Below, piece after piece: positions 21,194 through 31,555 of a stretch of DNA of 38,668 bases (the first letter of the stretch is position 1; every line of letters starts with the position of its first letter). Position numbers and translations under genes: made by a program. The notes beneath the pieces are model-generated. The model was not told the DNA's origin. It worked only from the letters and a program-made list of their open reading frames with translations, and made no database searches. This DNA is from Arcobacter sp. (GTDB taxonomy: Bacteria > Campylobacterota > Campylobacteria > Campylobacterales > Arcobacteraceae), in the NCBI GenBank assembly GCA_002733685.1, contig NVWN01000006.1:40078-78745 (forward strand), read 5' to 3'.

Positions 21194-21410
21194 AATATTT
21201 CCTTTATTAGTTTGTGAATAATCAAAATACTTAAGACCAAAGAGTATCTCGTAAATTAGTCCTAGTATTAATAGTTTTAAACGTATCATTATAATACTCC
21301 ATATTTTATGAGATAATCATATTTTTCTTTTCTATAGATAAGAAGATAAAAGTATAAAAGTAGTTTTTGAGTTAGATGTTCTTTCATAAGGATCTTGCCC
21401 TGACTTTGAG

Positions 21411-21950
21411 AAAGCTAAGAAAATATAAGAGCTCGTGAAAGCTCGCGCATTCGTTCTTTTTCTTTCTTGATTGCAAGAAAGAAACAAAGAAGCAACTGAC
21501 GGTTGTTGAAGGCAAAGCTTCCCTCACTTGTTATTTTGTGTTTCTGCCTTGCAAAACTCACTAAAACGTGCATTAAAGCACCTTTCTTAACGTTCAAACA
21601 GTTTCAGGCTGTTTCGAAACAAAAAATAAACGCTCGGCTTCAACAAAGTCAGAACCACGCTCCACGTTTCTCTTATAATGTTTTTCTTTTGAAAAGTAAA
21701 AATGTAAGAAATAAATAAATCTAATAAAAGCTACATTCTCAACAGCTCTTTCCCTGACTTTGATAAAGCTAAATCTTTTTATTTTTTAGCGCAAATAGGT
21801 GAAAACTGTCTGAGCGTCAGAAATGTGCTCTTTAGCACGTTTTAGTGAGTTTTTGAACCTAGCTAACAAATAAAAATATTTAGGCACCCGAAGGGCTTTA
21901 TCAATTTGTCAGTTGCTTTCTTGTTTCTTCTTTTCAAGAAAAGAAGATGC
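21411..21950. repeat. Long dispersed intergenic repeat, copy A (inverted-repeat arms)
   Basis: The stretch has two inverted arms (about 21455-21620 and 21800-21950): actcactaaaacgtgc on the left is the reverse complement of gcacgttttagtgagt on the right, and the aagcaactgac end matches on both sides. The block from 21411 to about 21850 recurs as a direct repeat at 23455-23880, and pieces recur at 33411-33475. It is non-coding; short ORFs inside it look spurious. No transposase is seen. It may be a MITE-like or recombination-prone repeat of this genome. Confidence 0.75.
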
Positions 21951-22039
21951 CGGAATGTAAGGACTAAATTCTGCTTGCAGACAAAAAAAAGCGCAAAGGT
22001 TACTTTGTATGAGCTCTTTTTTGTCTTATTTTAAATTAA

Positions 22040-22062
22040 AGGTGCCTGTCCACATTTATCTT
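22040..22062. repeat. GGTGCCTGTCC-type motif, copy 1
   Basis: aggtgcctgtccacatttat follows an ATTAA context like that of the copy at 25083-25106 (attaaaggtttctgttccta). No gene ends here, so it may mark an older junction. Confidence 0.6.
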
Positions 22063-22225
22063 TGAAAAGTATTCAAATATTCAACAGTATTCTTACGTGA
22101 TTAGACAAATAGAGTAAACCCTATGTTAGTTGAAGAAGGGGTAGACTTACAGTGCAAAAGTTGGATATTATATATAGTAGAAGATTTTCTGAAGCACTTA
22201 GTATAAATCAAATTTAGGAAATAAC

Positions 22226-23008
22226 GTGAAAAAAGAAATAATGATACTAAAAAAATATATTAAATTGGCAATATTTATATTACTTACATCAAATATTCTA
22301 TATGCACAACAAATTGATAAAATACTATTTATGACAGAAAACTATCCTCCGTATAACTTTAAAAACAATAATAAGATGGAAGGTATTGCAGTTGAATTAT
22401 TACTTGAAATGTTAAAAAAAGTGAATGCGAAACAAACACGTAAAGATATTCTATTAATTCCTTGGCAAAGAGGATATCACTATACATTAACTAAAAATAA
22501 CCATGCGTTATTCTCAACAACAAGAACTAAAGAAAGAGAAAAACTATTCAAATGGGTAGGCCCTATTTCAAAAACAAGCGTTGGATTAATTGCAAAAAAA
22601 TCAAAAAAAATCAAAATCAAAAATATTTCTCAAATAAGTAAATATTCTGTAGGAGTTGTAAGAGAAGATATTGGAGAGCAGCTCATTTTAAAATTAGATA
22701 TACAACCAAAGTATGTTCGAAGTATTGGAGGATCCGATGCAAGTAATAAACTAATCTTGATGTTACAAAGAAACAGATTTGACTTGTTGGCTTACGAAAT
22801 AAATGTAATAAAATGGGCAATGAAGAAAAACAATTTTATCTTAAGTAACTATGAAAACATTTATACTTTAAAAGATGCAGAACTATATTATGCTTTTCAT
22901 AAAGATACTCCTGATGAAACAATTAAACTTTTACAGTCAGCATTAGATTCAATCAAAAAAGAAGGCTTGTTCAAAAAAATACTTAATCAAGATAAATTTA
23001 CACGTTAA
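22226..23008 (+). CDS. Periplasmic substrate-binding protein, SBP_bac_3-like
   Basis: A 260-residue secreted binding protein. A signal peptide runs over about residues 1-27 (IKLAIFILLTSNILYAQ), with no lipobox. The mature protein opens ILFMTENYPPYNFKNNNKMEG, then GIAVELLLEMLKKV, then HALFSTTRTKEREKLFKWVGP and SVGVVREDIGEQLI, which are typical of the bacterial solute-binding family 3. No transporter gene is beside it, so it may serve a distant transporter or a receptor. The start is GTG, with AGGA six nt upstream. Nearly all nearby coding DNA is on the minus strand, and copies A and B of the long repeat bracket this gene and the next. Confidence 0.85.
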   Translation: MKKEIMILKKYIKLAIFILLTSNILYAQQIDKILFMTENYPPYNFKNNNKMEGIAVELLLEMLKKVNAKQTRKDILLIPWQRGYHYTLTKNNHALFSTTRTKEREKLFKWVGPISKTSVGLIAKKSKKIKIKNISQISKYSVGVVREDIGEQLILKLDIQPKYVRSIGGSDASNKLILMLQRNRFDLLAYEINVIKWAMKKNNFILSNYENIYTLKDAELYYAFHKDTPDETIKLLQSALDSIKKEGLFKKILNQDKFTR

Positions 23009-23014
23009 ATCTTT

Positions 23015-23368
23015 TTATTTTTTACTAAGATGAAAACCATTTTGATGAGGGCAAGAATAAACATTTAATAAAACACCATTGCTTTTAAATAAAATATCTG
23101 CTCTTTTTTGTGCTTTATAGTTAGAAACATATAACTGTTTTAATCCTCCCTTACTATCTGTACAATAGCTACACTCCTCACTTTGCGTATGTCTACTTTT
23201 AGGAGATAAATGCCACATCTTGCACTTTTCGCATAAATAAGGAAGTAAACTATGTCCATAACGTTTTTTTGCATATTTTGCTGAAGAAAAAGCTTCCTCT
23301 TCTGAGCTAAAAAAACTTAAAGGTTTTTTATCATGATTAGAAAAACAAGTTTCACTTTTTACATTCAT
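23015..23368 (-). CDS. Zn-ribbon-like protein with two repeated segments
   Basis: I do not know this family. The 117 residues are two imperfect copies of one pattern: about residues 20-57 (AFSSAKYAKKRYGH..LLPYLCEKCKMWHLSPK) and about 75-117 (LKQLYVSNYKAQKRADILF..VYSCPHQNGFHLSKK), with C46, C49, H53 in the first and C106, H113 in the second; C66 and C69 between them add another pair. This suggests metal-binding knuckles. It is convergent with the binding-protein gene, six nt away. The ribosome site is weak (AAAAAGAG). Confidence 0.6.
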   Translation of the reverse strand: MNVKSETCFSNHDKKPLSFFSSEEEAFSSAKYAKKRYGHSLLPYLCEKCKMWHLSPKSRHTQSEECSYCTDSKGGLKQLYVSNYKAQKRADILFKSNGVLLNVYSCPHQNGFHLSKK

Positions 23369-23454
23369 ATTTACTCTTTTTTTTACTTTGTTTTTTAAAT
23401 TATATCAATTTTTTAAATATAAAGGTGACTCTCCCCTTTTATTCTCTGGATTTG

Positions 23455-23890
23455 AGAAAGCTAAGGAAATATAAGAGCTCGTGAAAGCTAGCGCATTCGT
23501 TTTTTTTCTTTCTTGATTGCAAGAAAGAAACAAAGAAGCAACTGCCACGTTGTTGAAAGCAAAGCTACCCTCACTTATTGTTTTCTTCTTTCTGCTCTGC
23601 AAAACTCGTTAAAATATGCTAAAGAGCACATTTCTTAACACTCAAACAGTTTCGAGCTGTTTCGAAAGAAAAAACAAACACTCAGTTTCAACAAAGGCAG
23701 GATCTCCGCTCCACGTTTTACTAGTAATATTTTTTTCTAAATAAAGTAGCACCATAAGAAATAATAAGCCTAATCAAAAACTTAATTCCCCACTGGTCTT
23801 CCCATGACTTTGATAAAGCTAAATCTTTTTATTTTTTAACGGAAAAAGGAGAGGACTGCCCGAGCGTTAAAAATGTGCCTCGTATCACTT
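23455..23890. repeat. Long dispersed intergenic repeat, copy B
   Basis: Same family as 21411-21850 and in the same orientation, with many point changes. It matches from GAGAAAGCTAAG through GATAAAGCTAAATC, and its right arm is broken off near 23880, where the accessory island's motif (tgtccccatttatttatc) begins. No ORF is credible inside. Confidence 0.75.
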
Positions 23891-23895
23891 GATAT

Positions 23896-23916
23896 AATGT
23901 CCCCATTTATTTATCA
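23896..23916. repeat. GGTGCCTGTCC-type motif, copy 2
   Basis: atgtccccatttatttatc overlaps the stop of the gene that ends at 23907; the GGTGCC half is lost. It coincides with the break in the long repeat. Confidence 0.6.
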
Positions 23917-24836
23917 CCATCATCTTCAGGATTAAAACATACAGAAGAATCACCTAATAAATTTAAAGTATTTATTCTATCTCTTGGATTTTCTATTCCT
24001 TCATACAAAGTTTCAAGTTCTTCCATTATTTCTAGTTTTTTTTCTAATGAGTTCATACATTCAAGATAACTCCCCTCTAATCCCATATCAAAATCTAAAG
24101 GTTTTATATTTCTAATAAAGTCAATGTGGTCGCCATTTTGCTTAGAGTTTATAAAGAAAATCAATAATTCTTTCAAAAGGATATCTTCGTTTTCAAAATT
24201 ATATTCTTCTCTAACAAATATTTTTGATGCTTTTGTATCATATCTAATTTCATCAGTATATATATTCAAACGAGTTGTTTCATTTTTTAAAACTTCATAT
24301 AAAGATTTTGAAATTTTTCCAATAACTTTTCCAATAAACTTTTTCAATTTCATGTCAATAAAGGTTATATCAAAAGGAAAATTATCAGAAATTTTTATAT
24401 CATAATTATGTTCAATAAAAGTATGAAGTGATTTTTTTTCTTTATCTCTTTCTTCACTAGAAATTAGACTATATCTATCGTATCTATGAGTCTTATAAAA
24501 TTGACCTAACATTTCTAAAAAACTTAAGTGAACTTTCCCAATTTTTAATTTATTCTTTTTTTGAATTCTAGATAATAATTCTAAATGATTATGAGTTATA
24601 AGAGATTTCTCAAATTCTTCTTGGTTCGTTTTATCATCATGTTCAATTAATACAATTGTGACTTTAAATAATCTTTCAAGTCCAACAGATACATTGTATA
24701 AAAATTCAAATACTTCTTCTCCATAGTGCAATGTTTTCATTTCATGTAAACACTGCAGTCCATTAAAAATAAACCTTCCAGATATGTCTAATTCAGTCCC
24801 AAGATTAAAATTTTTCCACAACTCTGATTTATTCAT
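23907..24836 (-). CDS. Helical protein of unknown function, HEPN-like features
   Basis: I cannot name this 309-residue family. It is soluble and helical. Residues 45-100 (FLYNVSVGLERLFKVTIVLIEHD, then ITHNHLELLSRIQKK) resemble the core helices of HEPN-type proteins, but no clear R-x4-6-H catalytic motif is seen. The rest alternates charged helices and short strands (YDTKASKIFVREEYNF), and the C-terminus is acidic. It lies at the left edge of a defence-like island, next to a helicase remnant. AAAGGG precedes the ATG. Its last codons overlap a motif found at the ends of other island genes. HEPN is a suggestion only. Confidence 0.55.
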   Translation of the reverse strand: MNKSELWKNFNLGTELDISGRFIFNGLQCLHEMKTLHYGEEVFEFLYNVSVGLERLFKVTIVLIEHDDKTNQEEFEKSLITHNHLELLSRIQKKNKLKIGKVHLSFLEMLGQFYKTHRYDRYSLISSEERDKEKKSLHTFIEHNYDIKISDNFPFDITFIDMKLKKFIGKVIGKISKSLYEVLKNETTRLNIYTDEIRYDTKASKIFVREEYNFENEDILLKELLIFFINSKQNGDHIDFIRNIKPLDFDMGLEGSYLECMNSLEKKLEIMEELETLYEGIENPRDRINTLNLLGDSSVCFNPEDDGDK

Positions 24837-24888
24837 AAAACTACCCTTTAATAAAATATATATTTACTGTTTTTTTGCATACTTAACT

Positions 24889-25080
24889 TCAAGAAGTTTT
24901 AAATTCCTTACACATTGACTTTTTAACAAAAGACATATTTTCCCTAGCTCTTGTACAAGCTACATATAATTTATTTTTTGTTTGAGGGTTAAGTTTTGAT
25001 AAATCATCAAATAAGTATTGACTTAAAGTAGTAGGATTTAATACTATATATATCTTTCTAATTTCATTTTCTACTCTTAA
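24889..25080 (-). pseudogene. C-terminal remnant of a UvrD/GajB-type superfamily 1 helicase
   Basis: The minus strand is open for 63 codons from 25080 to the TGA at 24889-24891 and reads ...LFDDLSKLNPQTKNKLYVAC then TRARENMSFV. KLYVACTRARENMSFV is helicase motif VI of the UvrD family, found near the C-terminus. No start codon fits, and the frame is cut by a TAA exactly where the 25083-25106 motif begins. The fragment is therefore what remains of a larger helicase gene. Short UvrD-type proteins of this kind are partners of OLD-family nucleases in Gabija-like defence; that link is inferred. Confidence 0.78.
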
Positions 25081-25082
25081 TT

Positions 25083-25106
25083 AAAGGTTTCTGTTCCTAT
25101 TTATTT
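25083..25106. repeat. GGTGCCTGTCC-type motif, copy 3
   Basis: attaaaggtttctgttccta followed by tttatttatc is a diverged copy of the motif. It sits at the broken end of the helicase remnant and runs into the stop of the gene at 25105. Confidence 0.55.
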
Positions 25107-25404
25107 ATCTTTCCCATTCATTACAAAACATCATACCTGTACCTTTAACATACTGTAAATATTTATCCTGATTAGTCTCTCTCATTAAAAGAAGATTTTC
25201 AATCTTTTCTGAAGATTCTATCATTAACTTTTTCATTTCATCTTGTGTAATTCTTGAATATTTATCATCATTCAATAATTCTGAATGTTCACCTGCATGT
25301 AAATTTTCTAAAAATGTATTTCTAAATGCATACAATACAATTGCATTTGCCTCATCTCTTTTTGTAAATCCACCAGGGAATGCTTTTTCAAATAATTCTT
25401 CCAT
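25105..25404 (-). CDS. Hypothetical small protein, 99 residues
   Basis: I do not recognise the family. It is a soluble, mostly helical, acidic protein: FTKRDEANAIVLYAFRNTFL, then ENLHAGEH and ITQDEMKKLMIESSEKIENL. No membrane segment, signal or Cys pattern is present. The ATG follows AGGAG ten nt away. The gene stands between two copies of the GGTGCCTG motif, and its stop overlaps the left one, as with its neighbours. A module of defence-island type is likely, but nothing in the sequence shows a role. Confidence 0.55.
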   Translation of the reverse strand: MEELFEKAFPGGFTKRDEANAIVLYAFRNTFLENLHAGEHSELLNDDKYSRITQDEMKKLMIESSEKIENLLLMRETNQDKYLQYVKGTGMMFCNEWER

Positions 25405-25503
25405 TTAACTATATCTCCTATAACTTATTTAATATTTCGAAAGTATCAATCCTCATTTAATTAGAAACGCTCATTCCCAACGGCTCGTCCACGGAGTTAA
25501 ATT

Positions 25504-25516
25504 GGTGCCTAATCCC
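25504..25516. repeat. GGTGCCTGTCC-type motif, copy 4
   Basis: ggtgcctaatccc overlaps the stop of the gene at 25509. The sequence just before it, cattcccaacggctcgtcca (25469-25488), is also found as part of the long repeat at 33445 and, diverged, at 21733 and 23785. Confidence 0.55.
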
Positions 25517-25964
25517 TATTCTGTTGGGGATAACTCATTTTTCTCAATATAAAGTTTTTCACTTCTGTTTCAACATCTTGGTCTTTAAACAACTCTTTAG
25601 AATATAACCAATTTTTATGTTCATTACCTATATCCACATATCCAGTTCTTACTGCTTTTGGTTTTGGTCTTGATTTAATTTTTAATTTAGTACTCTTTCT
25701 ATTCTTACTAATAATTTCATTTTTTGACATTGACCAATTGATATTTAAATTAGTTTTTCGTATATCATCGAGTATGCAATATAATCTTTCTCTTGTGGTA
25801 ACAAGCCATGTTCTTTGCTTTGATGTTTCAAATAATATCATTGCATCTGAATCTTGAGGTACTTCTTTATTTGAACTGAAGTTTTTTGAGCTAATAATAC
25901 AATTCTTTATTTCTAACTCTTCTTTAAACTTTGTTGTTTTTTGAAAAAAATCTGAATATCTCAT
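25509..25964 (-). CDS. Hypothetical protein, 151 residues, paired with a membrane protein
   Basis: No family is recognised. The sequence is basic and soluble, with mixed alpha/beta character (DAMILFETSKQRTWLVTTRE, then RERLYCILDDIRKTNLNINW) and a Lys/Arg-rich middle (KSTKLKIKSRPKPKAVRTG), which could bind nucleic acid. It begins with an ATG four nt after the stop of the membrane protein gene at 25968, and its AAGAAGG site lies inside that gene, so the two are translated together. It ends on a motif copy. A two-gene effector/membrane module is a fair guess, not shown. Confidence 0.55.
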   Translation of the reverse strand: MRYSDFFQKTTKFKEELEIKNCIISSKNFSSNKEVPQDSDAMILFETSKQRTWLVTTRERLYCILDDIRKTNLNINWSMSKNEIISKNRKSTKLKIKSRPKPKAVRTGYVDIGNEHKNWLYSKELFKDQDVETEVKNFILRKMSYPQQNRD

Positions 25965-25967
25965 AAC

Positions 25968-26366
25968 TTAGCCTTCTTCTGTTGATTTTTGTTCTGGTTC
26001 TTCATTTTCTTCTTTCTCTTTTAACTTTTTAATAATTTTTGTGAAAAGTAGTGGCCAAGTAAAACCAACGGCAACTGATGCGGATAGGCTTACTTGGAAG
26101 AGATTGACCATTTGACCCAAAAGTCCAATAACAGCTGCACCAAAACTCCACATAAGTAGAAATACTAATGTTGTTTTAAAACTATGTTCTAATTCTAGAA
26201 CTGACTCCTTTTTCAAAATAAAAATACAAAGATCTAGTAAAACTGCTATAAAGCCTATAATAGCGCATGCAATTATAAAAACTAATACCGCTCGTTCATT
26301 TTCTAAAATTGTTACAACCTTAAGTTGAAAAAACATTGTATGTAAGCCTTCAAATATTAAATTCAT
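25968..26366 (-). CDS. Small integral membrane protein
   Basis: A 132-residue protein with three predicted membrane helices: about residues 25-50 (AVLVFIIACAIIGFIAVLLD), 64-84 (TTLVFLLMWSFGAAVIGLLG) and 88-110. The C-terminus is strongly charged (KIIKKLKEKEENEEPEQKS) and would be cytoplasmic or exposed depending on topology. No family is recognised. It is the first gene of a two-gene unit with the 151-residue protein. GGAG lies four nt before ATG. Membrane proteins in such units can be toxins or pores, but nothing here proves it. Confidence 0.6.
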   Translation of the reverse strand: MNLIFEGLHTMFFQLKVVTILENERAVLVFIIACAIIGFIAVLLDLCIFILKKESVLELEHSFKTTLVFLLMWSFGAAVIGLLGQMVNLFQVSLSASVAVGFTWPLLFTKIIKKLKEKEENEEPEQKSTEEG

Positions 26367-26510
26367 TTTTCTCCATTTATATTAGTGATGTATAACTATT
26401 TATTATTAGTAGTAAAAAAAGAAATGAGAACAGATACCTTTTGTCTTTAACTAAAATTTAATATTTTTTTGTTATTTTTAAATTTTTGTTAAGAAAAGTT
26501 ACTAATTTGT

Positions 26511-26525
26511 GCCTGCACCTTTTCT
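26511..26525. repeat. GGTGCCTGTCC-type motif, copy 5
   Basis: gtgcctgcacctttt lies 10-24 nt past the stop of the ABC-3C ATPase gene and is the most diverged copy. Confidence 0.45.
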
Positions 26526-26534
26526 TTATTCCTA

Positions 26535-28556
26535 TTAGTTTAATTCCTTTATTGCCCTATCATCTATAGAAATAACTCTATAATTTTCTGGATTTAAACC
26601 CTTTGTTACTTCTTTAAACTTATCTTGATTCTTATCAACTTTATTCTCAAATGATGCGAAAACTATACTTTGGCACCCTAATTTACTTAATGTTTTAAAT
26701 AATGCAGCTTGACTTGTTTCTGTCATAGCGTGCTGTGCTGGTTCATCAAATAAAAATAATCCGAGATGATTACCATTTCTAATATTTGAAACTTCATAAA
26801 GTGCAATTAAATATGCCCAAATAGAGCGCACAAAATCACTTGCAGAAGAGTTATGTTTAATATGTTGTGGCTTGTTATATTCGATTGTTACTACTGGAAA
26901 ATATTTCGCAAAATCTTGTTTAGATATATTTACCTGATCATCCCTTTTACTATCATATTTAAAGTCCCTCAATAATAGTTTAAATGATGATTCTAATAGT
27001 TTTAACTTTTCAGTATCTTTAAAATTCATTGTAAATGGTTCTCTAGATTTTTCATTAATATCCCATAGTTTAGAAACTTTTTTAATTTCCAAACTAAACT
27101 CAATCAATTCTTTTTTTATCAGATTTGCTTTTTCTATTTTATCTTCTACAAGGATTAATTCTTTCATATTTGCAAGTGATGGTACATTTGAATTACTTAA
27201 TAAGTCTTTTTCTAAATATTCAATAATTTTTTTATCAGATTCATATTCTTCTAATATTTGCTTGTAATATGACTTTTCATTAACTATCTCTTTCTTAAGT
27301 ATTTTTATATATGTTGATAGAATATCTTTTTGTGATTTAATATATTTTTTATTATCATCCAATCCCATTACCTTTATATGCTTGTAAACACTGGGTGCAA
27401 TTGGATTATCACAAGTGGGGCATAATCCTTTAAATATTTTATTGGTATTAATTTGATCACTTGTATATTTTTTTATTTTTAATAAATCAGTAAGATTTGT
27501 TATCTCTTGAGTTAAATGAAGTTCTTCACTTTTTAATTCTTCTAGTTCATTTGTTTTTATATTTAAACCATCATCAATTGATATCAAATCATTTAAAAAG
27601 TTTTTTAACTTTTCTTTTAATTCAAGAAGATTTTTTTCTGTATCATTTTTTGGTAAATTTATTCTTTTATCTAATTCACCCTTCTTATTTATCAATCTTA
27701 CTAAATAGTTTTCAATTGATAAACTATCTTCATTATTAACTTTATACCAAATGTCGTATTGTTTTTTTGATAATAAATCTATTCCCATAGTTTCTTCTGG
27801 CAGTCCTAATATAGTAGCTGATACAGATTCTATTTTATTTTTTATTTTATTAACTAATTTATCCCATTCCAATACAATATCTTTTTTTGTATCTTCATAC
27901 CTATTTCTTTCAATTTCATATTCAAAAGTTTTTAAATCAAGAATATACTCAATAATTCTTTTTTTAGCATCCTTTATTCCATAGTTTGGTATAGCAGGAA
28001 AAAAATCGGTCCAACCTTTTACTTGTTCTATAAAAAAAGCATTAAATATAACTTGCAAATATAATTTTGTTTCACTACCTTCGTATTTAGGGATAACAGG
28101 AAGTGATAAGTCAAGAAACTTTTCAAGATAATTATAAAATCCTTTCTCATTTGTTGCTGATCCACCATCATGTAAATAATAAAATTCTTCACTACTTTCA
28201 GATTTTATCTCTATAATTTTTGGTTCAATTTCATAATGTTTGATATATCTTTTCAATACTATTTTATCACCTAAGCTATTTTCTATTTCTAGTAACACCA
28301 TAGAAGTTATTATATTTAAATCTAAACTATTATATGGGACTTTTGATGTTAATATAGAATCAAGAGCAACTACATTTTTACCACCCAATAATTCTTCCAT
28401 CCCTAAAGCATAAAAAATTGCAGAGGCTATTGTACTTTTTCCAGAGTGATTGTCACCCTTTATAATGGTCAAGCCATTTGTTAAAAATTCTATCTCTCTT
28501 CCAAAATTTTTATCTTTTGTTTCAATTTCAATTTTTAATTTATTTATTTTTAACAT
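26535..28556 (-). CDS. ABC-3C ATPase: Rad50/SMC-like with zinc hook
   Basis: The 673-residue ATPase has an N-terminal Walker A (GDNHSGKST, about residues 34-42), a central coiled coil, a CPTC zinc-hook motif near 380-383 (LCPTCDNP), a second coiled coil, and a C-terminal signature-like segment (SASDFVRSIWAYLI) followed by Walker B (GLFLFDEPAQ). This is the Rad50-like layout of the ATPases in ABC-three-component systems, which join an ATPase to a middle component and an effector. It is the last gene of a four-gene minus-strand operon (1 nt after the preceding gene's stop, with GGAG just before ATG). It probably senses or binds DNA; the trigger is unknown. Confidence 0.88.
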   Translation of the reverse strand: MLKINKLKIEIETKDKNFGREIEFLTNGLTIIKGDNHSGKSTIASAIFYALGMEELLGGKNVVALDSILTSKVPYNSLDLNIITSMVLLEIENSLGDKIVLKRYIKHYEIEPKIIEIKSESSEEFYYLHDGGSATNEKGFYNYLEKFLDLSLPVIPKYEGSETKLYLQVIFNAFFIEQVKGWTDFFPAIPNYGIKDAKKRIIEYILDLKTFEYEIERNRYEDTKKDIVLEWDKLVNKIKNKIESVSATILGLPEETMGIDLLSKKQYDIWYKVNNEDSLSIENYLVRLINKKGELDKRINLPKNDTEKNLLELKEKLKNFLNDLISIDDGLNIKTNELEELKSEELHLTQEITNLTDLLKIKKYTSDQINTNKIFKGLCPTCDNPIAPSVYKHIKVMGLDDNKKYIKSQKDILSTYIKILKKEIVNEKSYYKQILEEYESDKKIIEYLEKDLLSNSNVPSLANMKELILVEDKIEKANLIKKELIEFSLEIKKVSKLWDINEKSREPFTMNFKDTEKLKLLESSFKLLLRDFKYDSKRDDQVNISKQDFAKYFPVVTIEYNKPQHIKHNSSASDFVRSIWAYLIALYEVSNIRNGNHLGLFLFDEPAQHAMTETSQAALFKTLSKLGCQSIVFASFENKVDKNQDKFKEVTKGLNPENYRVISIDDRAIKELN

Positions 28557-28557
28557 T

Positions 28558-29004
28558 TCAACTCCATAAGCCTTTTAATTTTTCTACGTTTTTATCTGTT
28601 AATTTTTTACCAATACAAATTAAAAATTCTTGTTCATCTTTCATTATTTCTAAATTCTTAATATTTTTAATAAAAGACAATCCATCTTCCGTTAAAAAAT
28701 ACTTCTTGCCATTAAATCCACAAAGATCATCTTTTAATAAAAATGTTAAAATTGAATTATTTCGAATCTCAATATTCCAGAAACCAATAGATATTTCACA
28801 ATCATTTTGTACACTTTTTAAAAGTTTTTTTCTTCTTTTGGGATTTTGTATTGCCCATAGTAATAAATGTATTTTTAATAATGAGATATTCTTTTCTTTG
28901 CCTGAACCAGTATAATTCATTATAAAGAGTACTATAATAGTCAAATATAAAATTCTTGAATTTGTATCAATATTAATAGGTTTTTTGGTAGTTTTAAATT
29001 CCAT
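28558..29004 (-). CDS. ABC-3C middle component, small wHTH-like protein
   Basis: The protein (148 residues from ATG) is small and helical with a winged-helix look: ILYLTIIVLFIMNYTGSG, SLLKIHLLLWAIQNPKRR, then YFLTEDGLSFIKNIKN as wing and last helix. Operon position and length fit a middle component (MC) of ABC-three-component systems, which links ATPase and effector. GTG at 29010 would overlap the protease stop by four nt. ATG at 29004 has GAGG seven nt upstream, so I prefer it. The family assignment rests on context as much as on sequence. Confidence 0.7.
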   Translation of the reverse strand: MEFKTTKKPINIDTNSRILYLTIIVLFIMNYTGSGKEKNISLLKIHLLLWAIQNPKRRKKLLKSVQNDCEISIGFWNIEIRNNSILTFLLKDDLCGFNGKKYFLTEDGLSFIKNIKNLEIMKDEQEFLICIGKKLTDKNVEKLKGLWS

Positions 29005-29006
29005 TT

Positions 29007-30137
29007 TCACCCCTCTTTAAAATCAATATTGCAATCAAATAACCATTTAGCAATAATATACTGTACCAATTTATTCAATAATAATGTTCTATTTGATAAT
29101 AAGTACTTAAATTCATTATTAATAGATTCTTCAATATCTTTTGTAATTTCATTGATTCTATTTTGCCCAATATTTTTGGTTTCTATATACTTACTATATT
29201 TAATTTCAATATTATCTAACATAGTATCAGTAAGTATTAACCATCTATCTTTAAATTTTGTATCTAAATCTGATAACTGATTAATTGCTACTTCACCATT
29301 AGAATATTGTTTAATACGAATTTTATTTTTTTTCATTACCTCTTCAATATGATATAAATTTTTATTTTTGCGATTTAAATTTTCAAAATTTTCATTATCA
29401 TCATCTTTAAATTTTTCTAACTCTTCTAAAGAGATTTTTTGATTTTGATTTTTCATTTCATTCGTTATGTCAGTTATAGTTTTATATTTAGTAAAAATAA
29501 ACTTATTCTTATATAATGGCACTAATGTTAATGCTTCTACTGCATTAAAAATACCATCTTTATCAATTAAATTATTTATACTTCCTACTAAATAAAGGTT
29601 ATTATATTCTTCAAAAAATACTCCACTACCTGACAATCCATTTATTTTTTCTTTTATGTGATCCCCAGATGAATCAGCAGTTAAATTATTTATAGTTAAT
29701 AACATAATGTTATCTTCACTAGCATTACATATAACATCATTAAATGGAAATGATTTTCCATTAGATATAGCTTTGGGATAACCGTTTAAATGGTATTTTT
29801 TATCATAGTGTGCTTTATCTAAATAAACTACATCTGGTAAAGAAAAACTTATCATAGAAATCTCTATTAAAACAAGTTTATCAAATCTTTTAATCCCAAT
29901 TGGAATAATAGGTACTTCATTAAAATCAATAATTTCGATATCTTCTATCGTAGATTTATAATTATTTTTTTTACCAAAAAGAACATGCTCAACCGTTAAT
30001 ATATAAAACTTCTGATTATCATTAACAATAATACCTGTACCTATTTCTATTCTTGTTTCTTTTTCAATTACAATTGTTAATTTTAGTTTAACTGTTAATC
30101 GTTTTATTTTATCAATAACATTCAAATTATTTGGCAT
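29007..30137 (-). CDS. ABC-3C trypsin-like serine protease with C-terminal domain
   Basis: The 376-residue protein has an N-terminal trypsin-like domain: the His segment is YILTVEHVLFG (H51), the likely Asp is in FDKLVLIEIS (D86), and the nucleophile is in NGLSGSGVFF (S169). After about residue 200 comes a charged coiled region, then a helical C-terminus (LLSNRTLLLNKLVQYIIAKW) that fits the C-terminal domain of ABC-3C effectors, which dock to the middle component. The predicted role is to cleave a host or phage protein when the ATPase is triggered. AAGGAATAATA precedes the ATG. It overlaps or abuts both neighbours, so the operon is tight. Confidence 0.8.
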   Translation of the reverse strand: MPNNLNVIDKIKRLTVKLKLTIVIEKETRIEIGTGIIVNDNQKFYILTVEHVLFGKKNNYKSTIEDIEIIDFNEVPIIPIGIKRFDKLVLIEISMISFSLPDVVYLDKAHYDKKYHLNGYPKAISNGKSFPFNDVICNASEDNIMLLTINNLTADSSGDHIKEKINGLSGSGVFFEEYNNLYLVGSINNLIDKDGIFNAVEALTLVPLYKNKFIFTKYKTITDITNEMKNQNQKISLEELEKFKDDDNENFENLNRKNKNLYHIEEVMKKNKIRIKQYSNGEVAINQLSDLDTKFKDRWLILTDTMLDNIEIKYSKYIETKNIGQNRINEITKDIEESINNEFKYLLSNRTLLLNKLVQYIIAKWLFDCNIDFKEG

Positions 30138-30139
30138 TA

Positions 30140-31153
30140 TTATTCCTTCAAAGTCAATATGGCTTCGTCATATATAGATTTACAATTGTACTCGGTTTCT
30201 TCATCATTTGTTAAAAGCCTTATACCCTTTGACACGTATTCCTCTTTAGGATAATTAAAGTATAAATAAATTTTATCTGAAATTTTCCTATGTGGATGAG
30301 ATAAGATTCTTGCGATTGTTTCTATATTTGGATGATTATATGTTCCATTTGTAGAAAATATAAAATGATTAGTTTCAATTAAAGATAAAAATTCATTACT
30401 TGTATTATATTTACTACCATGATGAGAAAGTTTGACAAAATCTACTTTGTATTTATTAGATACTGTATATTTTTTGCCTCTTAAATAGAATACTATTACA
30501 CTATCTTTTGCGTCACCCAACAATAGTAATACTTTATCTTTATATCTCATTTCAAAAGCTAAACTTGACCAATTTGCAACATCATTTACTAATTTTTTTT
30601 CTTTAAAGTCATCTTTTCCAATTTCTGATAAACGTCTCTCATCCATTATCATAGTTGAAGAAATTAAATTATTTTTCTCTTCTTTCTTTTTCCAATCTCT
30701 TTCTAAATATTCTAATGCTTCCATTGTCGGAGATAAAAATTTAATAGATAACCCATCTATCTCAAAAGTTTTATCCATTGTTATTAAGTCATTATATATT
30801 TTAATATTATTTTGTTCTATGTATTCTGTCAATTTAATACCATCATCAATTGATATTAAATTTGAATTATTTTGTCGTAATAAGCTAGCAGAATTAAAAA
30901 AAATATTTTTTATTTTACATTTATGATTACTTTCTAATAATTTATTTATTCCACCAATATGGTCTAAATCGATGTGAGTAACAATAAGTAAATCCAATTG
31001 ATCTAAGTCTTCAAAAATATTTCGTAAAACTTTTTTATATATTTGACCTGATCCACCATCAATTAAAATATTTCTTTTCTTATTTTTATTATCAACATAA
31101 GTAATGAAAATTGAATCTCCACTACCTGCATGTAATATTTTAAATTCAAACAC
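30140..31153 (-). CDS. MBL-fold hydrolase, ComEC/Rec2-type, first gene of the ABC-3C operon
   Basis: The 337 residues make a complete metallo-beta-lactamase fold of ComEC type: HAGSGDSIFI near the start, VTHIDLDHIGG (H60, D62, D64, H65) as the first metal motif, LLLLGDAKDS as the metal-bridging Asp segment, and KLSHHGSKYNT as the later His motif. The first motif has H-x-D-x-D-H instead of the usual H-x-H-x-D-H. Such proteins are secreted or cytoplasmic nucleases or phosphodiesterases; no signal peptide or membrane helix is seen here. The start is GTG with AGGA six nt upstream. The next gene begins two nt after the stop, so it heads the operon. Confidence 0.82.
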   Translation of the reverse strand: MFEFKILHAGSGDSIFITYVDNKNKKRNILIDGGSGQIYKKVLRNIFEDLDQLDLLIVTHIDLDHIGGINKLLESNHKCKIKNIFFNSASLLRQNNSNLISIDDGIKLTEYIEQNNIKIYNDLITMDKTFEIDGLSIKFLSPTMEALEYLERDWKKKEEKNNLISSTMIMDERRLSEIGKDDFKEKKLVNDVANWSSLAFEMRYKDKVLLLLGDAKDSVIVFYLRGKKYTVSNKYKVDFVKLSHHGSKYNTSNEFLSLIETNHFIFSTNGTYNHPNIETIARILSHPHRKISDKIYLYFNYPKEEYVSKGIRLLTNDEETEYNCKSIYDEAILTLKE

Positions 31154-31449
31154 ACTTTTTCCTAATATATTTAATTTATCTTATAGTGTCAAACGAAGTA
31201 CACCCAGAGGTCATAAATCCACTTTATATTTTAATTTCTCATAAAAATGGAAAATGGTGAGAGTCAACTTTTCAATTAAATTCATGATCTAAATTTTTTC
31301 CATCTTTTATTATAATAAAACACAAACCCTATTCCCTTATCTTAAATCAATATTACTATTAAAAAATAACATTTCAATAACAATAAAATCACTTTATTAA
31401 ATAATTAAACAATATTTATTCATTTTATAAACAATAATAACTAAAAGGT

Positions 31450-31467
31450 GTCACAGTTTGCGTCACA
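31450..31467. repeat. 18-bp repeat gtcacagtttgcgtcaca, right copy
   Basis: Identical to 19874-19891, same orientation, 11.6 kb apart. A third half-unit (gttttcgca) follows. Confidence 0.8.
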
Positions 31468-31526
31468 GTTTTCGCAAATTTCAAAATTTATAATATTTCT
31501 TTATTCTGGATAATAAGCAAATGTAT

Positions 31527-31555
31527 GAGCTCTTAAATAACAAATAATTTAGTAT
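31527..31555. repeat. 29-bp repeat, right copy
   Basis: 28 of 29 bases match 18235-18263, same orientation. With the 18-bp repeat it marks the right flank of the accessory region. Confidence 0.8.

Follow-up and report, generated by a model that had tools for sequence, protein, structure and literature searches.

The window, a stretch of 38,668 nucleotides from the genome of an Arcobacter sp., contains two long non-coding sequences, A and B, on either side of a gene for a solute-binding protein and a gene for a small cysteine-containing protein. This arrangement raises a simple question: what are these two sequences, and do they have anything to do with the genes that they enclose? The first-pass annotation of the locus described them as direct copies of a repeat with about 440 nt in common, starting at position 21411, between which recombination could remove or duplicate the two genes. 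The window is part of contig C8 of genome G000 (3.3 Mb, 36 contigs), and the main comparison below is with G001, the genome of a sister species. The features around A and B are as follows.

21314-21418, plus strand: relic of an older copy (spacer and ~20 nt from the start of a right unit), ~105 nt, upstream of A
21426-22020, plus strand: copy A, a full two-unit element, non-coding, ~590 nt
21492-21652, minus strand (its sense strand): left unit of A, a predicted hairpin of 162 model positions (covariance model R2, 177.5 bits)
21653-21753, no strand: central spacer of A, variable in sequence, between the divergent units
21754-21916, plus strand (its sense strand): right unit of A (R2, 136.2 bits; first 147 nt folded)
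21948-21985 (right border approximate), plus strand: short insert in the right terminal hairpin region of A, read by eye and also present in copy B of G001
22038-22059, plus strand: REP-like 22-mer AAAGGTGCCTGTCCACATTTAT adjoining A, a separate small repeat
22226-23008, plus strand: solute-binding protein family 3 (SBP_bac_3; Pfam, E 5.5e-13), kept in G001
23015-23368, minus strand: 117-aa Cys-containing protein, family unassigned, kept in G001
23472-23880, plus strand: copy B, its right unit cut at the island border; complete in G001
23538-23700, minus strand: left unit of B (R2, 167.1 bits)

Copies A and B are indeed direct repeats. The alignment of positions 23451-23878 with the A region is 429 nt long and 82.3% identical (E = 3e-116), with ungapped blocks of 95%, 80% and 82% identity at spacings of 2046-2050, and the longest exact blocks measure 42, 34 and 23 nt. 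The length of A is ~590 nt rather than 440; the shared part is shorter, ~430 nt, because B lacks the right part. In A, the left terminal GAGCTC has its first base at 21429, and its right counterpart has its last at 22016, so that the start first assigned to A was ~15 nt too early, while the terminal GAGCTC of B begins at 23475. Two inverted arms are present in A, as had been described, and are 78% and 86% complementary. No ORF of at least 80 amino acids was found inside A or B. Two features are additions to the first-pass annotation: the relic upstream of A, which is 93% identical to G001 sequence located directly after a left unit there, and what is left of a third copy, C, namely 11 nt at 31522-31532.

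At the same locus in G001, the two genes lie between A and B in unchanged order, within a block that is 97% identical. There, A is cut down to its left unit and spacer, and B is complete (601 nt), confirming that the B of the window is cut where the island begins. Upstream of the locus, G001 harbors a further ~1.1 kb in which a DUF2975 gene and a small gene judged by eye to be of the HTH type are located. In G002 and G003, which belong to the same genus, the gene of the 117-aa protein is covered among the matches listed and the binding-protein gene is not; the 117-aa protein itself has no match in Pfam or NCBIfam at E 0.001. The locus is unstable, A being reduced in G001, and B truncated and C deleted in the window. 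These differences between species, together with the 42-nt exact block, are what can be said for the view that the copies matter mainly as direct repeats deleting or duplicating the two genes between them. Such recombination is possible in principle on a block of this length. Yet in G001, the one relative in which the locus has been read, the spacing is stable and both genes are kept, so that neither their loss nor their duplication is seen, and this view is extremely unlikely to be the correct one.

The element is dispersed: copies are not absent elsewhere but occur in many genomes, and a comparison of the A region with its own genome yields 107 matching pieces. Twelve places are near-full, matching over at least ~475 nt of the query: A itself and eleven more with 80-88% identity; B matches over 418 nt, and many further pieces match the right half only. 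In an alignment of 13 long copies (including B) and 13 half copies, the parts inspected have the ends AGAGCTC...GAGCTCT in common, whereas the central spacer varies. From the spacer, two homologous units of ~162 nt point outward in each long copy, the left one on the minus strand and the right one on the plus strand. Covariance model R2 gave 118 matches in 65 sources, these being sources picked for holding matches. Counted on 117 of them, one of two overlapping matches in L024 having been dropped, the units make up 38 divergent pairs, whose spacers measure 63-116 nt, and 41 solo units; within 200 nt, no pair is convergent or tandem. The genes next to 30 elements form 8 and 8 co-directional, 9 convergent and 5 divergent neighbour pairs; this context is without clear preference, and a role as 3'-UTR or terminator was rejected on that basis. 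A and B are not specially linked to the two genes that they enclose and are one ordinary instance of the family.

The history of the individual copies can be followed in part between the two species. Among the 31 G000 elements of at least 180 nt, 19 have at least one 700-nt flank that matches G001 stretches, namely those around G001's own copies. At shared sites the variants can differ, as seen by eye for the terminal hairpin of B in G000 and G001, and at two shared sites a half copy in one species faces a full copy of another variant in the other. Given these shared flanks and differing variants, copies are largely inherited in place but rewritten.

Several minor features of the family were recorded along the way. 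In one G001 copy, ~850 nt split the two halves (L104:2694-3541), and the G000 element is uninterrupted (L013:8025-8591). A 23-nt sequence, CTCACAGAGAGTGCAAGCACAAG, and close variants of it are inserted in element hairpins in two genera (L023:2724-2910, L010:2789-2976, L111:5108-5295, and the G017 copies in L069, L074 and L076). Hairpins of the GGTGTCAGGCACC type lie upstream of several solo units in G000 and G001. In genome G105, a solo unit is located downstream of the 5S rRNA at all six rRNA operons examined (L182, L184-L188), four in the sense of the operon and two facing it, and L183:4611-5876 contains three units ~560-590 nt apart, one of them partial.

The evidence that the units fold is comparative. 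Folds of the single sequences of most of A's two units are only modestly better than those of shuffled sequences (z -2.73 and -0.90), and the support comes from the way in which the pairs change. Within the genus, 67 of 80 candidate units were retained (23 left, 44 right); the others were removed by eye, 10 of them as spurious or partly duplicate, two for carrying the 23-nt insert and one for an internal deletion. Double changes that keep the pair are observed in 11 of 47 predicted pairs of the left units (alignment A1, n=23) and in 5 of 52 pairs of the right units (alignment A2, n=44). Model R1, built from left units alone and searched over 32 sources, a subset of the loci, returned 58 matches from six genera, 56 of which span all 162 model positions. 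In the resulting alignment A3 (54 distinct rows, six genera), both sides change in 39 of 47 pairs and 91.8% of the cells are paired. The double-change cells number 393, as compared to 104.6 +/- 8.6 in shuffled alignments (0 of 500 reach the observed value) and at most 83 when the structure is slid, and the covariation score is 0.446 as compared to 0.153 +/- 0.007 (0 of 500) and at most 0.102, respectively; as A3 was fitted to the structure, these counts lean towards it. This large structured repeat is without a match in Rfam 15: the gathering scan of the window identified one tRNA and nothing in the element, and an E-value scan of 21300-22100 returned only two matches, with E 0.33 and 0.38, far below the cut-offs.

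Covariation of this kind could have a less direct origin, since arm-to-arm correction of palindromes can yield double changes. The units would then be old palindromes kept perfect by mutation alone, through template switching or conversion between arms, and the fold would not be selected; an exchange of variants between copies is visible, which is in line with this idea. Such correction would, however, be expected to erase loops, whereas helices and unpaired internal loops are kept in six genera, almost all matches of R1 extend over the full model, and two distinct unit types persist. An origin by mutation alone is therefore very unlikely.

Which strand folds is less straightforward. The sense strand of the unit folds better than its complement in 22 of 23 left units, in 44 of 44 right units and in 50 of 52 further units, the last set excluding matches that span at most 110 model positions and loci outside the named genomes. 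Shuffled sequences give the same strand offset and the antisense z-scores are no worse (-3.16 and -1.77); base composition hence explains most of this asymmetry, which was weighed only weakly. G.U pairs and A.C mismatches in the stems were also compared. With structures chosen on the sense strand the balance amounts to 61:4 and 106:7, with structures chosen on the antisense strand to 11:36 and 5:10, and for the pairs common to both structures to 9:2 and 4:4: the ratio flips with the strand used for folding, and the choice of structure matters. For 43 units of genera outside the structure training, G.U exceeds A.C by 119:61, and by 105:30 once helix 3, which pairs poorly, is omitted, the slid controls being near 1:1 (177:196, 200:252, 225:151 and 152:163). 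The unit-sense strands contain 22% G and 16% C, an excess that by itself favours G.U slightly. A mutation bias linked to the replication strand should not give the same sign in both units, since within an element they are on opposite strands. Overall, this amounts to moderate evidence that the folded form is single-stranded, either RNA or ssDNA.

A replication-strand bias was also considered for the orientation of whole copies. In G017, orientation agrees by eye with the replichore in 16 of 19 copies, with the origin placed from dnaA, the terminus assumed opposite, and two symmetrical and at least three short or weak matches excluded, two of which would count against; the idea was formed after seeing these data. 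The pattern is not repeated in G000, where 17 copies agree and 11 disagree (earlier rough counts were 8:13 in G000 and 12:14 in G001), and the bias was rejected as a general rule.

The element is almost confined to Arcobacteraceae, with matches in about one genome in three of that family. A DNA search detected it in 12 of 41 genomes (its own included), all Arcobacteraceae, four of the 12 with a single weak match. Using R2, 36 of 104 Arcobacteraceae genomes, from 9 of 20 genera, exhibit matches, with 1 to at least 28 units each; the upper figure is a lower bound, as at most 28 candidates per genome were scored, under strict filters. The remaining 68 of the 104 genomes have no R2 match. In an order-wide sample of 248 genomes, 10 matched: eight Arcobacteraceae, plus G188 and G315, which share a genus in another family. 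Exact 17-mer matches led to 18 stretches in taxonomically scattered genomes, which were set aside as chance except for L056 (Arcobacteraceae). No description of such a repeat in Arcobacter was found among the titles and abstracts listed in searches of open-licence literature, and the words Arcobacter, Campylobacter and Epsilonproteobacteria do not occur in the text of PMC12306157. In a tree of 51 units, 14 pairs outside G011 are represented by both units, and all 14 are split between two clades (support 0.91 and 0.99) that mix genera; in the copies of G011, both units fall inside the larger clade, in separate subclades. Given this mixing, the form with two units either predates most of these genera or has been passed between them, a reading that conversion blurs.

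Much of the above would also fit a divergent pair of structured ncRNA genes, transcribed outward from the spacer and acting in trans, with copies arising by gene duplication: the arrangement is fixed and divergent, the stems covary, G.U exceeds A.C in the stems of other genera, and the two units of all 14 pairs outside G011 belong to different genus-mixing clades. Short conserved blocks beside the units, for example GTCCTTATCCC before right-type units in several genera (by eye), point the same way, as do four of the six rRNA-operon copies of G105, which lie just downstream of the 5S gene in the same sense. Genes of this type accord poorly, however, with a spacer that is mostly poorly conserved and by eye lacks a clear promoter, with copy numbers from 1 to at least 28 next to so many matchless genomes of the family, and with the existence of broken, half and tandem copies. 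An ncRNA gene pair is unlikely for these reasons.

The interpretation that we consider somewhat probable is that A and B are copies of a large, non-coding, non-autonomous, REPIN-like dispersed element whose folded halves are what matters. When complete, it comprises two ~162-nt hairpin units that point away from each other, along with small terminal hairpins. The folded single strand, RNA or ssDNA, would be recognised by a putative enzyme acting in trans; if so, active copies would have kept their pairing while their sequence changed. Most copies here would now be old: they would have stayed at their inherited positions, where recombination rewrote or broke them. We infer movement rather than observe it because no clean empty site was found: two G001 copies without a known ortholog were searched in G000, where one corresponds to the remnant of C and the other matched on one side only. 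Nor did the 10 copies caught by their end pattern show an excess of target-site duplication.

Candidate partners were surveyed among two protein families. Of 41 genomes, 17 have Y1_Tnp and 14 have RVT_1, and neither family tracks the element: Y1_Tnp has no match in the carriers G002, G011 and G019 (the last only 74% complete), and RVT_1 is absent from G001, G012, G017, G019 and G021. The sole Y1 transposase match of G000 is partial and holds a stop (G000:C28:237707-237922, L048). A Y1 transposase or a reverse transcriptase was rejected as partner, since its presence does not follow the element.

Three known types of repeat invite comparison. The element resembles a MITE in being non-coding, dispersed in many copies and bounded by the short inverted ends AGAGCTC...GAGCTCT. 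In an ordinary MITE, a DDE transposase would read double-stranded terminal inverted repeats and the internal palindromes would be passengers. Contrary to this, the 10 copies showed no excess of target-site duplication, the survey of Y1_Tnp and RVT_1, the only families covered, provided no parent insertion sequence or transposon, and the mechanism needs no covarying structure over the whole unit, yet such structure is seen in six genera. An ordinary MITE is decidedly unlikely. The small REP sequences (20-40 bp) are likewise palindromic and intergenic, and one REP-like 22-mer adjoins A, but the element is more than 10 times longer and constitutes a separate family.

REPINs are a closer parallel. 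As described in PMC3116915, they form inverted doublets, of which singlets are remnants; tandem clusters occur too, and changes in the sequence are compensatory. The element shares with that description two inverted palindromic units around a variable spacer, an extragenic location, singlets, tandem clusters and compensatory changes. By contrast, its unit has 162 model positions and 47 pairs, as compared to a REP around a 16-mer in REPINs, its full length is ~560-600 nt with several helices per unit, and REPINs are linked to RAYT transposases whereas some carriers of the element are devoid of a Y1 transposase. In architecture, REPINs are the nearest precedent; the element is not filed among them because neither the unit size nor the transposase link corresponds. 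A bolder proposal may be put forward tentatively, though it is doubtful: the family could represent mobile structured nucleic acids of a new class. Its unit, selfish and RNA-like, would measure ~260 nt with the hairpin and terminal hairpins taken together, and would spread in divergent back-to-back pairs by way of a folded single-stranded intermediate, moved by a putative enzyme and almost confined to Arcobacteraceae. Should the folded unit be what moves, the family would offer a REPIN-like system, rich in covariation data, for testing structure-guided mobility.

Beyond B, the window continues with a variable island, which ends at what is left of copy C.

23881-31521, no strand: variable island with Lamassu-like genes and unknown genes (PADLOC matches)
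26535-28556: LmuB (PADLOC)
28558-29010: LmuC (PADLOC)
29007-30137 and 30140-31153: two LmuA-like genes (PADLOC)
31522-31532, plus strand: remnant of copy C, 11 nt of its right end; full copy at this place in G001 (L098:2551-3114)

In G001, copy C is found on the far side of the island and has the orientation of B; the body of C and a histidine-phosphatase gene are absent from the window. Between B and C, G001 encodes SIR2, HerA and a NACHT-like protein of 1629 aa (C2, ~84.6-96.1 kb; L098, L093). With different defence genes between them in the two sister species, B and C bracket a defence hotspot. A general role of the element as synteny breakpoint was rejected, as the other flank is lost at 6 of 10 judged element sites and at 10 of 28 control gaps, which is not clearly different. 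At this particular place, B and C flanking the hotspot may serve as a recombination aid for swapping immunity genes. The short REP-like repeat (AAAGGTGCCTGTCCACATTTAT and variants) found at 22038-22059 recurs in similar form at 23410-23442, 23898-23915 and 25072-25104; repeats of this type, beside A, beside B and at the island border, belong to a small family of their own.
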